Shown here in pieces: positions 11,857-28,195 of a DNA stretch of 64,000 bases. A program made the position numbers and the translations under genes. This stretch comes from Echinicola strongylocentroti (lineage in GTDB: Bacteria; Bacteroidota; Bacteroidia; Cytophagales; Cyclobacteriaceae), in NCBI RefSeq assembly GCF_003260975.1, contig NZ_CP030041.1, positions 2,093,001 to 2,157,000 of the forward strand, written 5' to 3'. The first letter of the stretch is position 1, and the number at the start of each line of letters is the position of its first letter. The notes under the pieces were generated by a model. It searched no databases. It was given only the letters and a program-made list of their open reading frames with translations, and was not told the origin of the DNA.

Positions 11857-13968
11857 TTATCCTAAAACGATACGTATTGACCCTCCTTTGGGCACATTGG
11901 TTCCGGCATGGATAGATTGGCTTCTTACTCTACCCTTACCGGAATAATTCACTTTTAACCCTTTGTTTTCCAGCACATATAATGCGTCCCTTAATGTCAT
12001 TCCTGATACATCAGGCACCACAGGCGCTTCCACTTTATTGGACTTCCAAGTGATCGAATGGTTGACCAGGGATGACTGTACCCACTGCTCATCACCATTG
12101 TAATGGTTGGATAGGCCAAAGCGGTTACAAATCATCTGCAATTCATCCACTTTTCCTGCCTTGATATAAGGAAATACTTCATCTCCCTTTCTTGTTTCGG
12201 GAGAGGCTATTTCTTTATCCTTATTTACCTCCAGGTCCTGCGCATAAATTTTATCGGCTATTTCCTTGAACACCGGTGCAGATACATCACCACCATAAGC
12301 ATTAAATCCCTTGGGGCTATCGATAACGATGATCATACTGTATTTTGGATCATCCGCAGGAAAATAACCGGCAAATGAAGTATAATATTTTCGGGTATAC
12401 TTTCCATTGACCAGCTTTTGGGCAGTACCTGTCTTGCCTGCAATTTTATAATTGCTGTCACTGATATTTCTCGCAGTACCTCGCTCCACTACACCTTCCA
12501 ACAACTCCTGCAACTGCCGAACGGTCCTGTCTGAAGCAATACTCCTCCTGATCACCTCCGTATCATAGGCTTCCTCCACGCTGTTTCCTCGTTGGATTCG
12601 TTGCACGATCATCGGCTTGACCACTCTTCCTCCGTTCGCCACTGCATTATACAAGGTCAAGGTATGGAGCGGGGTCAGTTTAAGCTCATAACCAATGGAC
12701 ATCCATGGCAAAGTGGTTCCGTACCAATTTTTCTTGTGCTTTGGATCTTTGAAATAAGGAACCCCTTCTCCCTTTAACTGAAATCCCAATGGCTTGTCCA
12801 GCCCAACTTGCTCCACATAGCCCAAAAACTTGGAAGGGGCTACACCAAAATGCTCATCGACCAATTTCGAAATCCCTACGTTGGAGGACTTTTCAAAAGC
12901 CTGACGAACGGTCAACTTACCATAGCCTCCATATTTGGCATCACGCATGGTCTGGTTATAAAACTTATAATTACCGTTTCCTGTGTCAACGGTATCACTC
13001 AAGTTGAGCTTTCCTTCTTCCAATAAGGCCAGCATCGAAAGTAGCTTAAAGGTCGACCCAGGCTCGGTAAGTCCCTGCTCGCCTATGGCGTAATTATAGT
13101 ATTCACCATAACCATAGCCACTGTCTTTTTTCTCCAAATTCGCTATCGCCTTGATATGGCCTGTCTCTACCTCCATCACCACCACACAGCCATACTGCGC
13201 ATCTTTGTTCAATAACTGCCTGAGCAAAGCAGATTCTGCCACATCCTGGATATTGATATCGATCGTAGTGACCACATCAAAACCGTCTTCTGGACGGACA
13301 TCCTCAGCATCATGGACAGGCTTCCAGGTGCCTCCTGCAATCTTCTGGAAAAGAGCCTCCCCGTTTTTACCTTCCAGGTATCCATTAAAACTGTATTCGA
13401 GTCCGGCCCCGTAACGGTCTTCATTCAGAAAGCCAATCGTCCTCCCCGCCAGGTTCTTGAACGGGTTATAGCGCTTTTCCACTTTTTCGAAGATGACGCC
13501 ACCACCCATTCTTCCTTTCCGGAAAATGGGCCAACTGGACATCGCCTGCTTCTCTTGGTAGCCGATCTGCTTTCTGTTGAGCACGATGTACCTTCTTCCC
13601 TCTAGGCGGGCATCGTTGATCATGCGCTTGTACGCATTGGCGGACTTATCTTTATAAAAAGCCGACAACTTCCTGGACAGTGAGTCGACACCTGCCCGGT
13701 AATCATCCTCATCGGCAATACCTGGATCCAATGCCACTCTATAAAAAGGCAGGCTGGTGGCCAATAGGCTTCCGTCATCGCTATAGATATTACCTCGGGT
13801 GGCACTTACTTTTCGGTATTGGAGATTAATATCATCGGCTTTTTTTCGCCATTTGTCCCCATCCACAAACTGAACGTGGGCTATCCTGTAAAGAATAGCC
13901 CCTGCGAAAAGTACAACTGCCAAAAAGGCAAGCCTTACTCTCAGTAATATGGATTTCTTAATGTTCAT
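11857..13968 (-). CDS. ftsI: FtsI-type penicillin-binding protein (PBP3) with C-terminal PASTA domain
   Basis: Septal peptidoglycan transpeptidase anchored in the inner membrane, the partner of FtsW. The 703-residue protein has one transmembrane segment (about 10-29) and the class B PBP dimerisation domain (SATRGNIYSDDGSLLA at 55-70). Its transpeptidase domain has the catalytic STFK at 305-308, SSN at 361-363 and KTGT at 512-515. Residues 648-703 form a PASTA domain (VPDVSGMTLRDAL), which is absent from E. coli FtsI but usual for Bacteroidota. The gene overlaps ftsL by 4 bases and directly precedes murE. Confidence 0.97.
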   Translation of the reverse strand: MNIKKSILLRVRLAFLAVVLFAGAILYRIAHVQFVDGDKWRKKADDINLQYRKVSATRGNIYSDDGSLLATSLPFYRVALDPGIADEDDYRAGVDSLSRKLSAFYKDKSANAYKRMINDARLEGRRYIVLNRKQIGYQEKQAMSSWPIFRKGRMGGGVIFEKVEKRYNPFKNLAGRTIGFLNEDRYGAGLEYSFNGYLEGKNGEALFQKIAGGTWKPVHDAEDVRPEDGFDVVTTIDINIQDVAESALLRQLLNKDAQYGCVVVMEVETGHIKAIANLEKKDSGYGYGEYYNYAIGEQGLTEPGSTFKLLSMLALLEEGKLNLSDTVDTGNGNYKFYNQTMRDAKYGGYGKLTVRQAFEKSSNVGISKLVDEHFGVAPSKFLGYVEQVGLDKPLGFQLKGEGVPYFKDPKHKKNWYGTTLPWMSIGYELKLTPLHTLTLYNAVANGGRVVKPMIVQRIQRGNSVEEAYDTEVIRRSIASDRTVRQLQELLEGVVERGTARNISDSNYKIAGKTGTAQKLVNGKYTRKYYTSFAGYFPADDPKYSMIIVIDSPKGFNAYGGDVSAPVFKEIADKIYAQDLEVNKDKEIASPETRKGDEVFPYIKAGKVDELQMICNRFGLSNHYNGDEQWVQSSLVNHSITWKSNKVEAPVVPDVSGMTLRDALYVLENKGLKVNYSGKGRVRSQSIHAGTNVPKGGSIRIVLG

Positions 13969-24698: not shown

Positions 24699-24964
24699 GC
24701 AATTTATCTTCTAAATTATTTGACACCTTAGCCCTTCATGCTGCCTATACACTGTTACTGATTCCTACTCTGAGCCTGTCGAAGGGTAAAATCAGGAACT
24801 TTTGAGAACAGGATTTGCAAAACCCATGAAGAAGAACCCACTCTCCCAGAAATATTGCTTGATCCTTAACCCGTGTCTACGACATTCCGTTTTCACTCCA
24901 CATCCCTCCCTGATCCTTGGTCAGTACCTACGGCACTGGCGGGATGTTATTTTCATTTTCCGTC

Positions 24965-25065
24965 ACCAAGCTTCTGCTCCTAACGGAGCATTATTGCGGC
25001 ACTTTTCTACGCCCTACCGGCCCAATGCCCAAACTGACTTATGCGGCTAGGTATAAAAGCTTGGT
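24965..25065. repeat. Inverted repeat enclosing a hairpin
   Basis: ACCAAGCTT (24965-24973) pairs with AAGCTTGGT (25057-25065). Directly inside the left arm is TGCTCC-TAAC-GGAGCA (24975-24990). Unknown function; looks like a folded intergenic repeat. Confidence 0.6.
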
Positions 25066-25090
25066 AAAGTCATGCTGCTGCTATATTCCC

Positions 25091-25107
25091 TTGTGCCGTA
25101 GGCACAA
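25091..25107. repeat. Short palindrome TTGTGCC-GTA-GGCACAA
   Basis: Perfect 7-base stem with a 3-base loop, of the same type as 18306-18322. Confidence 0.7.
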
Positions 25108-25260
25108 AACTGCTTCTCAATTTACCTAGCTTGCTCGTAGTTTACCACCGAATAGCAACCATTAACACTCCAAAAGTACCGTATTTTTTTGCCCCGTACC
25201 GCCATAAATATAAAAAGGGAAAAAAGCTTTCCCCATAATTACCCCATTCCCAGCACCTTT

Positions 25261-25322
25261 CGTTCAACACGGCATTCAGGTTTGGCCGTTCCGGCCACCC
25301 GAATGCTTAGTTATTAGCTGTA
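25261..25322 (-). repeat. attC-like imperfect palindrome downstream of the HNH gene
   Basis: Between GTTCAAC (25262-25268) and TTAGCTGTA (25314-25322) lies a long hairpin. Outer arms GCATTC/GAATGC enclose TGGCCG-TTC-CGGCCA with small bulges. GTTCAAC fits the RYYYAAC core form of integron attC sites; the opposite side (GTTATTA) fits poorly. The site begins 6 bases beyond the stop codon of the HNH gene, where an attC would sit in a cassette. This is an inference from shape only. Confidence 0.4.
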
Positions 25323-25327
25323 GCTTT

Positions 25328-26080
25328 TTATTTTCCAAGTTCCAAAGCACTTTTTCCAAGTTCAATTTCAAGTAACTCGAGTTCCTTATCCCAAAGACTT
25401 TCTTGGGTTAACTTACTTTTTAAAGTACTATATTCTGTATCAGTTAGGATTATAGTTGCAGATGTAGCGGAATAAATTGCCGTAGGCAATCCTTCTTTCA
25501 TAAGATTCTTTATTCCGTTTACAACTCTATTTTTTCGTCTTGTACTAGTTTGAATTCCGTTAATATAATCGTCAATTAATTCATTAAGTTGTTCTAATTT
25601 ATCCTGAATTGCGTTACCAATTTCAAATCTTTTCTTCACTAACCTATCTTGGTCATTTAGATTTAATACTGATACAGTTAGTCTACCTAAGTCATCCACA
25701 CCTTTAATCCTATACCTCCAATATTTTAGATGATTTTTAGGGTCAACAATACTTGGGTCAATTATAGGTTCAATTATAGTATCATGATTATTTTTTGTTC
25801 CATTACACTTTTTACATGAAGGCAACAAATTCTCCCATTCTAGTACTTCATCTTTATATTTATCTTTATGATGAAAGTGTTCGACTTCTAAATATTTGCT
25901 TTCTTCTTTTATGTTTGCTTCACAGTAACAGCATTTATCATTTGAAAATGATAACAACCCCTTTTTTATGAAATCTAAATTCCAAACTGATTTTCCTGTC
26001 AATTTAAACTCGGTAGTTAATTCTCCTTGTAGTTTGGTTGTAAGTTCGACAGGCCTTGGTATTCTGTCTAACTTAATCAT
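25328..26080 (-). CDS. HNH nuclease, PtuB-like (Septu-type defence)
   Basis: The 250-residue protein has an HNH/His-Me finger nuclease core. Zinc ligands C50/C51 and C53 (CCYC), the EVEHFHHK motif (65-72), W82 and N84 of EWENLLPSC, and C89/C92 (CKKC) followed by N94, K96 and H99 are visible. This is the pattern of the TIGR02646-like HNH proteins that act as PtuB in Septu and Septu-type retron systems, where the nuclease is controlled by the ATPase PtuA and acts against phage. The start overlaps the upstream ATPase gene by 8 bases, so the two form an operon. The C-terminal half is helical and unrecognised. Strong AT bias suggests acquisition by transfer. Confidence 0.8.
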   Translation of the reverse strand: MIKLDRIPRPVELTTKLQGELTTEFKLTGKSVWNLDFIKKGLLSFSNDKCCYCEANIKEESKYLEVEHFHHKDKYKDEVLEWENLLPSCKKCNGTKNNHDTIIEPIIDPSIVDPKNHLKYWRYRIKGVDDLGRLTVSVLNLNDQDRLVKKRFEIGNAIQDKLEQLNELIDDYINGIQTSTRRKNRVVNGIKNLMKEGLPTAIYSATSATIILTDTEYSTLKSKLTQESLWDKELELLEIELGKSALELGK

Positions 26081-27251
26081 CTGTCGAAAGTCCTGTTAAT
26101 TGAATTTTTAATATTTTTCTCATTGAATTTTCTGGATGCAACATAGCATCTAAAATCACAAATTGAGTTTTTGCAGTTTTAAAATCATCTTTATCTACTG
26201 CTTCACTAAATTTACTTAACGCATTAATATAGTCAGGTGTTCTGGTTTCTGACATCCCCATAACATCAGTTAGAATTTCTTCAACAGTCCAACCTTGACA
26301 ACCATATTCTTGATTTATTATTTTATTTAGCTTGATTTCATCTTTGCTATCAAGTGTCAGAGCAATTATTTCTTTTGGTTTTGCAACTTGAACTATATGA
26401 GGGCTGTGTGTAGAGGTAAAAACTTGAGCGTTTGGTAAAATTATTTTCAAGACATCATAAATCCTTGCTTGCCACTCTGGATGAAGGTGTAAATCAATTT
26501 CATCAATGAAAACAATACCATCAAAGTCTTTGATGAATTTACTGGGATTCTTGTACCTAAACTCTATTTCTTTTATTAATCCAATCAATACAGCCATGCA
26601 TGATTTGTAACCTGATGACAAATACTCAAAGTAGATTTCTCCGTTTACAGTATTGAGCATTATGTCATTCGAATTTGGATTAACCTTATTGAATGAAATT
26701 TGAGGATTGAGAAGATTAAAACATTCCTTAGCAAGCTCAATGTTTTTTAATTGACTCTCGTCTAAGTGATTCTCATGAGCTGACCATAAGTGTCTATTTA
26801 CAAACCAATTTTTCAGATCACTTGGTAATGATCCTGTCATTGTTTCTTTTGCAAATTTATTGTTGTCTTTCTGAGGGTCTGTACTTAATGAACTCAAGTG
26901 CTGATAGGGTATATCCCTGTGTGTTTTGAAAACTATTATATCATTTGAGTTTTCATAAAACCCAATTGAATTATATGTGTTTTCATTCGGATGAAATACA
27001 GTAATATCGAAAGATTTTTTTTGATTTTGACCTGAAATCTTCACTTCAACCGTCCAATTACCTTTGTCTAATCCTGCTGTTCTTTTGACCGATGTTCGAT
27101 TTACTCCAAATGATTGAGCTAAACAATCTAATATGGTTGTTTTACCTATACCATTTTGACCACAGATAATATTGAAATGGTTATCAAAGTTCAGTTTCAA
27201 CTCTTTAATTGGTCCAATTGCTGTGATGTCAATATTGTTTATTCTTATCAT
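26073..27251 (-). CDS. ABC-type AAA ATPase, PtuA-like (Septu-type defence)
   Basis: The 392-residue ATPase belongs to the SMC/RecF/OLD-like ABC group. It has Walker A GQNGIGKTT at 31-39 and an ABC signature-like LSSGYKS near 210. Walker B IVFIDEIDLHLHPEW is near 245-260 and the switch His lies in STHSPHIVQ near 285. No TOPRIM domain follows, unlike OLD nucleases. Together with the adjacent HNH nuclease this matches the PtuA-PtuB pair of Septu, in which PtuA forms an ATP-binding scaffold for PtuB. No reverse transcriptase or msr/msd RNA was seen nearby, so a retron is not indicated. Codon use is AT-rich. Confidence 0.8.
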   Translation of the reverse strand: MIRINNIDITAIGPIKELKLNFDNHFNIICGQNGIGKTTILDCLAQSFGVNRTSVKRTAGLDKGNWTVEVKISGQNQKKSFDITVFHPNENTYNSIGFYENSNDIIVFKTHRDIPYQHLSSLSTDPQKDNNKFAKETMTGSLPSDLKNWFVNRHLWSAHENHLDESQLKNIELAKECFNLLNPQISFNKVNPNSNDIMLNTVNGEIYFEYLSSGYKSCMAVLIGLIKEIEFRYKNPSKFIKDFDGIVFIDEIDLHLHPEWQARIYDVLKIILPNAQVFTSTHSPHIVQVAKPKEIIALTLDSKDEIKLNKIINQEYGCQGWTVEEILTDVMGMSETRTPDYINALSKFSEAVDKDDFKTAKTQFVILDAMLHPENSMRKILKIQLTGLSTDD

Positions 27252-27272
27252 TTATAAAATTTGTATTTCAGT

Positions 27273-27281
27273 TACAGCTAA
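27273..27281 (-). repeat. Right boundary of the Septu-like cassette (TTAGCTGTA)
   Basis: TTAGCTGTA on the minus strand, 22 bases before the ATPase start. The same 9-mer occurs on the plus strand at 25314-25322 just beyond the HNH stop codon, so the two-gene operon is bracketed by this inverted repeat. On the minus strand it is preceded by ACG, giving ACGTTAGCTGTAAC. Confidence 0.5.
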
Positions 27282-27288
27282 CGTCTTA

Positions 27289-27309
27289 ATATACTCTACT
27301 GGAGTATAT
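27289..27309. repeat. Inverted repeat ATATACTC-n5-GAGTATAT
   Basis: Perfect 8-base arms and 5-base loop, 38 bases upstream of the ATPase start. It could be an operator of the defence operon or one arm of a recombination site. Confidence 0.5.
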
Positions 27310-27312
27310 ATT

Positions 27313-27511
27313 TCATTGGCTATTTTTTTTTGAATTATTAATATCCAATTGATTATAATTTACGATCTGGTCGAATGGACTCTTAATGTTTTGCAAATTT
27401 TTTGGTCGATACATGTGTATAAATAGCCGTTGTATTGGGACTTTGATGCCCCAGCAATTGCTGAATATAACGTAAGTCCGTCCCCCTGTCCAATAAATGT
27501 GTGGCAAACAC
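27313..27511 (-). pseudogene. C-terminal remnant of a tyrosine recombinase, frameshifted
   Basis: On the minus strand from 27511 the frame reads [21 protein letters not shown] and then [10 protein letters not shown]. This is the end of the catalytic domain of a XerC/D- or IntI-like recombinase, with the LGH histidine and the nucleophilic Tyr of IYTHV. The conserved HxLR segment upstream is missing, so the 5' part has been lost. In the run of six A at about 27396-27401 the frame changes by one base; the other frame then continues [13 protein letters not shown], a tail like the SPLD end of IntI-type and related Bacteroidota recombinases. It points in the same direction as the ATPase/HNH operon and ends 62 bases before it. 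Confidence 0.75.
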
Positions 27512-27528
27512 CTTTATTCCCACCATAT

Positions 27529-27573
27529 CCCGTTTGTAAACGACTCTAATCGATTACTTCCGTTTGCAAACGG
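27529..27573. repeat. Two CGTTTGyAAACG palindromes 30 bases apart
   Basis: CGTTTGTAAACG (27531-27542) and CCGTTTGCAAACGG (27560-27573) have centres 30 bases apart, about three helical turns. They lie directly where the recombinase homology begins. Confidence 0.55.
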
Positions 27574-28195
27574 ATATTCTCGAAAATTAAGGCTTTGCTA
27601 ACTATTATAAAATACCACAAAAGGGGTGTTTTTTAGAGGTAGATAAGATGGATGCGGGGTTTTGCCCGTAAACTGACGGGCTATCTGGCCCAAAAAAGGA
27701 GTTGGGCTGCACCTCCTCAAGGCGTGACAAGTGTGTGGTTGCATAGTAAGCATGAGTAGTAGTGTATATGGTTAAAAACAACTATAACCAAATATAATAC
27801 TTATTGATAATTATAAAAACAAAGTATCTGGTAATTTTTAACCTCAGTTCGATTATAAAATCGTCACTGCGAGGCTTAGAGGGAGATTTGAGGGGTGGAA
27901 GCCGTGGCAGTCTCGGTATTTCGGGATTACCACACCCTTTTCCAACCCACATCCTCCTTAAAAGGGTTCGCAAAGACGCTTTTAATACTAAAATCAAGTC
28001 GAGCTCAGGTTTCTAGTCTATGGTTGGTATTCGTTCTGCGAGTAATCTGTGCTCGGAAATGCATTTTATCCCGGCTTATGCTAGTACAAGCGCAAAAAAT
28101 CAAGATCGTTCCTCCTGCTTTGAATGCTGGATATTATGAGATAACAGGGGAGTAGGCATCCGTAACAGTCGTTTATTGATGACCTTCCTATAAAA
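27574..28195. other. Non-coding region upstream of the defence cassette
   Basis: No gene is supported here. Seen: an inverted repeat GCCCGT-n6-ACGGGC (27664-27681), and a MITE-like element (27840-28011). The stretch 28012-28195 holds no recognised feature. Confidence 0.5.
27840..28011. mobile_element. MITE-like element, copy 1 (172 bp)
   Basis: The left end AACCTCAGTTCGAT and the inverted right end AACCTGAGCTCGACTT form imperfect terminal inverted repeats. Internally, CGTCACTGCGAGG near the left and GTTCGCAAAGACG near the right are partly complementary, so the element could fold back. It has no coding capacity. The same two ends bound the element at 53443-53783. No clear target duplication was seen. 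Confidence 0.55.

Follow-up and report, generated by a model that had tools for sequence, protein, structure and literature searches.

How does a defence operon of two genes come to lie between a short inverted repeat and a long hairpin, beside the last codons of a recombinase that is otherwise gone? The question is raised by the window analysed here, a stretch of 64,000 nucleotides from Echinicola strongylocentroti (contig NZ_CP030041.1, positions 2,093,001 to 2,157,000). The initial annotation, made from the letters alone, had described two overlapping genes, an inverted 9-mer, a hairpin and a recombinase remnant, all of which were found at the positions it gave. Our answer is that the operon is very probably a single two-gene cassette of a Bacteroidota-type integron without the I2 domain in its integrase, exchanged at its site between species. 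The larger point is that the recombinase of the integron-like system to which this Septu cassette would belong is without the domain used to recognise integron integrases.

The Septu operon

The two open reading frames, 25328-26080 and 26073-27251, both on the minus strand, overlap by 8 bp.

26073..27251, minus strand: ptuA, 392 aa, ABC/OLD-type ATPase of Septu (PADLOC PDLC00305, PF13175/PF13304, PDB 8ee4)
25328..26080, minus strand: ptuB, 250 aa, HNH nuclease of Septu (PADLOC PDLC00342, PF01844 HNH)

The product of ptuA matches the PADLOC model PDLC00305 (PtuA1) with E 5.6e-162 over residues 3-389, and that of ptuB matches PDLC00342 (PtuB1) with E 3.3e-98, both near full length; Pfam finds an AAA/OLD-type ATPase in PtuA (PF13175/PF13304) and an HNH domain in PtuB (PF01844). 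By these profile matches and the overlap of the genes the pair is identified as Septu, which bears out the name it had first been given. The best solved relative of PtuA is PDB 8ee4, itself named PtuA; PtuB has only a weak match among the solved structures (E 0.007).

With the known Septu system (PtuAB) the locus shares an operon of ATPase and HNH nuclease that matches PADLOC PtuA1 and PtuB1, the cassette having room for these two genes only. It differs in the distance of its PtuA from the solved one (8ee4, E 1e-18) and in that both proteins miss the equivalog cut-offs of the NCBIfam models for the PtuA and PtuB of retron Ec78 (130 of 500 bits and 62.7 of 150 bits, respectively); being so far under these cut-offs, they are not the retron-linked forms. 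An abstract of 2026 gives cleavage of tRNA-Tyr as the mode of action of Septu (PMC13096335), and the present copy may serve in phage defence.

Boundaries of the cassette

Read on the minus strand, the order is ...AAGACG^TTAGCTGTAACTG - ptuA - ptuB - TACAGCTAATAACTAAGCATTCGGGTGGCCGGAACGGCCAAACCTGAATGCCGTG^TTGAACG..., from which the following features are taken.

25268..27281, minus strand: integron gene cassette with ptuA-ptuB, 2014 bp, G^TT to G^TT (core sites from the sequence; other cassettes at the site in congeners)
27273..27282, minus strand: 5' core site (R') of the cassette, G^TTAGCTGTA
25314..25322, minus strand: R'' box, TACAGCTAA, complementary to the 5' core of its own cassette
25268..25322, minus strand: attC site, consisting of R'', the stem GCATTCGGG/CCTGAATGC and an inner stem, with the end ...CCGTG^TTG (DNA fold, five further genomic copies)

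In a classical cassette, attC starts with an R'' box, to which R', the 5' core of that cassette, is complementary. The TTAGCTGTA of the Ptu cassette pairs with its TACAGCTAA at 9/9 nt, and the inverted 9-mer and the hairpin are therefore parts of one object, 25268-27281. The canonical consensus of R'' ends in AAC; the Ptu R'' ends in AAT, which counts against our reading. TTAGCTGTA is found exactly twice in the window, at 25314-25322 on the plus and at 27273-27281 on the minus strand, where 0.35 occurrences are expected and 4 of 100 shuffles reach two. Since 217 of 20,000 random pairs of 60-mers from the window also share an inverted 9-mer, the 9-mer alone is weak.

As single-stranded DNA the hairpin (about 25260-25322) has a folding energy of -16.7 kcal/mol in a stretch of 90 bases (z -3.6), equalled by 0 of 200 shuffles. 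The genome contains it five more times at E <= 5.4e-9, next to different genes; this recurrence raises the hairpin above chance. The opposite end of the cassette (27252-27345) folds poorly (z -1.5) and so fits attI rather than attC. Taken by itself the Ptu attC slightly favours the top strand (-14.1 versus -13.1), the circle form being equal for both (-19.5 each). Rfam at its gathering threshold matched only tRNA in the window and nothing at the attC. A reading of the hairpin as a terminator was dropped after the comparison with the congeners.

A decayed integron around the cassette

The cassette is flanked by the following features.

27282..27319, minus strand: attI, ..ATATATACTCCAGTAGAGTATATTAAGACG^TT, belonging to the truncated integron (identical at 33 of 38 positions to the attI that directly follows the complete integrase gene in congener G003)
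27313..27509, minus strand: 3' remnant of a tyrosine recombinase, IntI-like, without I2 (about 65 codons, broken frame)
27510..27653, minus strand: left conserved element LE (attI-like in other blocks; common to several blocks of the genome and to congeners G006 and G004)
24918..25267, minus strand: right conserved element RE (behind the terminal attC; common to blocks of the genome)

The initial annotation had likened the tail of the remnant to IntI. It matches the IntI profile at the C-terminal positions 267-304 with 44 bits, and it corresponds to the last part of an integrase preserved whole in G003 (377 aa, with attI directly behind); over the tail and attI combined, the identity with G003 is 84%. 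To this extent the likeness holds; the enzyme is not a canonical IntI, however, as it has no I2. Part of the same integrase tail with attI was located inside an array in G004. From the match to G003 it follows that the Septu block is a decayed integron, in which PtuAB is the first and now the only cassette.

The block resembles a CALIN in that it, like the other LE/RE blocks, consists of cassettes with no intact integrase seen beside them; it differs in having retained attI and the integrase tail, and is therefore a decayed integron rather than only stray cassettes. Among 98 genomes, this one included in both counts, the attC/RE stretch occurs in 11 (this genome, 8 of 10 congeners and two others) and LE in 10, LE extending over more than about 50 bases only in this genome, G003, G004 and G006.

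Farther upstream, at 27837-27880, lies an intergenic repeat (..GTCACTGCGAGGC..) that is dispersed over the genome in more than 30 copies, full or partial. A dispersed GTCACTGCGAGG repeat dominated the search with the upstream flank; it is not part of the cassette system.

The Septu site in congeners

The site was located in related genomes by its neighbours, which we take to be M81-peptidase-like and FemAB-like genes: on one side lie the M81-peptidase-like gene and a Receptor-L gene (assigned by domain search), on the other the FemAB-like gene, which was found in this genome and in 7 of 10 congeners. At the orthologous site of G006 and G004, LE and the terminal attC with RE are 78-90% identical to those of the Septu block, and other cassettes lie inside. 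The proposal of the initial annotation that the operon arrived by an integron-like route is thus sustained by two congeners that share site, left element and terminal attC and differ in the inner genes. Unchanged flanks without cassette exchange in related genomes, which it had named as a refutation, were not what G006 and G004 gave; they have the same flanks with exchanged cassettes. Judged by these alignments, the Septu site is one at which species exchange cassettes.

When six cassette proteins of the G006 and G004 site were scanned, one of G004 matched the candidate defence gene HEC-05 (E 3e-191), one of G006 matched "cll" (E 5e-15) and the remaining four matched nothing. At the orthologous site G003 has pieces of RE only, and no match to LE or RE was found there in G001, G009 and G010; G002 has different neighbours.

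PtuA itself was matched at E <= 1e-70 in one of 395 genomes of the class, its own; the search of the other 394, with at most four candidates scored in each of the rows listed, gave none. Septu as a cassette therefore rests on one genome, which counts against our reading. In plasmids PtuA is represented by 8 records, all below 60% identity, and in viral contigs by 2 loci. Among the 119 PtuA relatives listed (own excluded), the longest contig measures 2030-2129 bp in 13, the neighbouring 100-bp bins holding 1 and 2; contigs of this length, near the 2014 bp of the cassette, would fit an assembly in which single cassettes with PtuA relatives form whole contigs.

A complete integron in the genome

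Elsewhere in the genome (block c748) there is a complete integron with a recombinase, P0001 (360 aa), an attI and a co-oriented array. G^TTAGCTGTAATGG lies 62 bp behind P0001 and is followed by at least 10 co-oriented cassettes with attCs, some of them split by introns. Rfam found group II introns in 4 of the 6 array loci searched (L083, L070, L016, L145), with 9 matches in both orientations; such introns are a known partner of attC sites.

G006 has the counterpart of this integron. With the stop included, 352 of 361 positions agree in the two recombinases, and the alignment of the integrons runs through attI to G^TT, where 1383 bp are extra in E. strongylocentroti, and resumes at the next G^TT. 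The extra stretch is one cassette with its attC, and this difference, exact to the base at the G^TT of attI, indicates that a single cassette was precisely inserted or excised. Both recombinase genes contain at their end a stretch, TTG-N18-TATCTTAG, that resembles the promoter consensus and is directed into the array; upstream of the Ptu cassette in the window no such pattern was found.

At the level of sequence, comparison establishes where the cassettes begin and end, that one of them was inserted or lost precisely at attI, that the orthologous site holds different cassettes, and that I2 is absent. The arrays also look as cassette arrays should: R' pairs with R'' of the same cassette, cassettes are exchanged or gained and lost at G^TT, and attI lies beside the integrase gene.

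A recombinase family without I2

With the IntI profile (TIGR02249) the genome yielded one good protein below threshold, P0001, matched in two stretches with 124.8 and 89 bits against a cut-off of 265, and none over the cut-off. None was found either in 17 named genomes with a recombinase of the P0001 type (18 were asked), and 58 of 59 genomes searched, this one included, had no IntI over the cut-off, the exception being G035 with 303 bits. As the recombinase falls under the cut-off of TIGR02249, it is not filed as IntI.

In the alignment the block of the additional domain I2 round patch III is missing from the family members. The spacing between the Arg and HxLRH is 91 aa in all 119 members measured (120 listed), against 132-150 aa in canonical IntIs (112 measured of 120). 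P0001 has at least 6,346 relatives, the absence of I2 being measured in 119 of the 120 listed. A tree with only two long Xer rows as outgroup places 19 IntI rows and 25 I2-less rows on separate sides of a branch (support 100/100 and 83/84). By both sequence and fold, the recombinase is nearest to archaeal XerA among solved structures, VchIntIA ranking behind; this counts against our reading, as do the score below the IntI cut-off and the lack of I2.

In the matches listed, P0001 corresponds to XerA and VchIntIA from residue 80 on, and the N-terminal 80 residues are barely covered. Within these residues R14, K16, H39, Q42 and W45 are invariant in 30 sequences, and the predicted structure (mean pLDDT 84.5, pTM 0.50) has the order beta-beta-alpha-beta-beta-alpha. 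A weak match to DUF5710, under the cut-off, was obtained with 1 of 8 proteins. The resemblance of the N-terminus to HARP/DUF5710 is only a lead; the conserved N-terminal domain might possibly replace I2.

G002 and G110 (named locus L209) each contain numerous near-identical copies of a smaller IntI-like recombinase (279-298 aa), which in G002 and G009 also adjoins the larger integrase. Relatives of the recombinase outside Bacteroidota (L226-L228, L223, L225) come, by title, from Clostridia, Lachnospiraceae, Syntrophaceae and Deltaproteobacteria; behind these no attC array was recognised by eye.

Arrays in other Bacteroidota

When named genomes were scanned with P0001, 43 loci were obtained; 38 carry Bacteroidota titles (Aequorivita, Gelidibacter, Algibacter, Profundicola, Psychroflexus, Draconibacterium and Algoriphagus, among others), the other five do not. 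At these loci a simple detector called 0.51 attC-like sites per kb on the plus strand downstream of the recombinase, against 0.15 per kb and strand upstream.

The position of the first cassette was followed in 40 loci (37 of the 43 named ones plus E. strongylocentroti, G006 and G003), 26 with and 14 without an attC call. A locus was counted if 6 or 7 of the 7 positions at its G^TT agreed with the R'' of any of its three leading attCs. The first cassette then begins 27-120 bp behind the stop codon of the recombinase in 20 of the 26 loci (18 of 24 named Bacteroidota, E. strongylocentroti and G006), and 6 of the 26 failed; with the loci shuffled, the mean was 1.89 and the maximum 9.

Consecutive attCs were compared in 22 arrays, 21 of them at loci chosen for their attC calls among the 43 and one from E. 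strongylocentroti, which provided 48 pairs in 18 arrays. R'' and R' of the same cassette match at 4.71 of 7 positions, versus 2.30 +/- 0.21 in 2000 permutations (maximum 3.06), and at least 6 of 7 positions agree in 27 of the 48 own pairs versus 63 of 2256 cross pairs. The other 21 own pairs score 5 or less, which counts against our reading, as do the selection of 21 of the 43 loci by their attC calls and, for the first cassette, the 14 loci without an attC call and the 6 that failed.

For 50 attCs with verified R''/R' of their own (23 loci), the bottom strand is the more stable one in 40, the less stable in 9 and equal in 1. In the outer nine stem columns A.C in the top strand, corresponding to a G.T wobble in the bottom strand, is found 30 times versus 5 times for the reverse, to which the detector is more lenient. 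Such a strand bias is what selection for folding of the bottom strand would leave, related attCs not being independent of each other. In the array of E. strongylocentroti the bottom strand is favoured in 1 of 4 validated attCs, which again counts against our reading.

Proposed mechanism and relation to known integrons

The parent system would be a Bacteroidota-type integron with an IntI-like tyrosine recombinase of about 360-400 aa that lacks I2 and is encoded in the direction of the cassettes; attI would lie right behind the stop codon of the integrase and be followed by cassettes bounded by attCs. The bottom strand of attC is expected to fold into a hairpin, which the I2-less enzyme, as the probable acting recombinase, would join to the double-stranded attI at G^TT in a single-strand recombination. 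The cassettes could be transcribed from the promoter at the end of the integrase gene. At the present locus, the Septu cassette would have been left behind attI and the last codons of the otherwise lost integrase, its attC hairpin closing the array. That a two-gene defence system is swapped in and out as one unit would be explained by such a cassette system.

The literature is represented here by excerpts of open-licence papers. In these, IntegronFinder had detected in Bacteroidetes only In0 elements, to which a single complete integron, that of Salinibacter ruber, was added later (PMC9024848); three papers count Bacteroidota or Bacteroidetes/Chlorobi among the phyla bearing integrons, which argues against novelty in the plain sense. 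The additional domain is described as the defining trait of IntI (PMC9668308), and as necessary for cassette capture, present in no other protein and lacking intermediates (PMC7790495). An older survey picked integrases by this domain (PMC2426708), a method of targeted sequencing filters them on I2 and so discards recombinases without it (PMC9176274), and there are 11 taxon-specific attC models, none for Bacteroidota (PMC8352920; a further paper drawn on is PMC8618304). The excerpts of this open-licence literature, subscription papers and preprints being outside its scope, contained no description of I2-less integrons in Bacteroidota, nor a related paper that brings together integron, Septu, cassette and attC. 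The initial annotation had called an integron an unusual vehicle for a defence system in Bacteroidota: it is new for the phylum and for the type of integrase, but not for defence, judging by titles in the references of PMC12444791, according to which defence genes in integrons have been published for Vibrio and for mobile integrons.

With sedentary chromosomal integrons that have a canonical IntI, as in Vibrio, the Bacteroidota type shares attI, attC hairpins with R''/R' cores, joints at G^TT, co-oriented cassettes and a cargo of toxin-antitoxin-like and defence genes. It differs in an integrase without I2 that scores under the IntI cut-off, and in an integrase gene that is co-directional with the cassettes and has attI at its 3' end. 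This orientation recalls the Spirochaetota integrons, whose IntIs are typically reversed; there, in the excerpt of PMC9668308, the additional domain is a defining feature, and the present recombinases are without it.

Ordinary cassettes could also have been moved in trans by a canonical IntI, past or plasmid-borne, with the I2-less recombinase at attI as a bystander. Such an origin would agree with the need for I2 in cassette capture (PMC7790495, in excerpt), with canonical IntIs in the family (G035, 303 bits) and with database IntIs of which some are labelled Bacteroidota. We nevertheless consider it improbable, because no IntI over the cut-off is present in 58 of the 59 genomes (this one included) or in the 17 named recombinase genomes, because the I2-less gene lies close before the first cassette in 20 of the 26 testable loci, and because the recombinases of two congeners, whose arrays are one cassette apart, agree at 352 of 361 positions.

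Beyond this locus, we incline with some reserve to the view that Bacteroidota possess a large class of working integrons of their own, whose integrases never had or have lost I2. Folded single-stranded cassettes would then be captured without I2, by enzymes that are either the missing intermediates or an independent solution, overlooked since the surveys select for I2; the N-terminal domain may act as a substitute. An I2-less family before cassette arrays would make the origin of the integrases directly testable, and a large unread pool of Bacteroidota cassette genes would open up.

Recurrent blocks in the genome

LE before the blocks and RE behind the hairpin recur genome-wide in the same orientation, the terminal attCs of the blocks are 79-87% identical, and the genes near the hairpin copies include, as named by eye, a thioredoxin-like gene, toxin-antitoxin-like pairs and a Fic-like gene. 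The first cassettes of the blocks begin at G^TT behind LE. A matching R'' is present in the attCs of c1349, c5917 and the second c780 block, and in the first c780 block it matches only in part. Two of the pairs are as follows.

c1349, R'/R'': TTAGGCAAC / GTTGCCTAAC
c5917, R'/R'': TTGGCGGTAAT / ACTACCGCCAAC

In the first automatic test of six hairpin blocks the own box was the best match at the start of the cassette only in the Ptu block, which counts against our reading. A later reading gave near matches in c4951 (TTGTAGG versus TTGTAGC) and in the last cassette of c1349 (8/9), and located the box of c5917 at L016:8370.

These repeats would supply the homology for a different explanation, namely that the Septu block is a dispersed repeat or transposon-like unit from LE to RE in which homologous recombination between the flanks exchanges the inner genes, and the close likeness of the terminal attCs would agree with it. 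We regard this as quite unlikely: the inner joints are G^TT with R''/R' pairs specific for each cassette, and the difference between E. strongylocentroti and G006 at attI is exact to the base. The multiplication of the LE/RE blocks is explained neither by homologous recombination nor by the integron that we prefer. That a terminator-like hairpin and an inverted 9-mer flank a defence operon by mere coincidence could be argued from the approximately 1% of random pairs of 60-bp flanks that share such a 9-mer, but this explanation is contradicted by the recurrent hairpin, the attI and the other cassettes at the same site in congeners, and its probability is negligible.

Block c5917 contains two copies of RE (L016:9153-9450 and 12617-12906) with other genes in between, which points to arrays that were duplicated or fused. 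An element of 2.65 kb, IS21-like by eye, is near-identical in three arrays (L070:11132-13787, L072 in c780 and L083 in c748). In block c748, at c748:28127-29722, an ORF-poor cassette of about 395 bp is present in four tandem copies.
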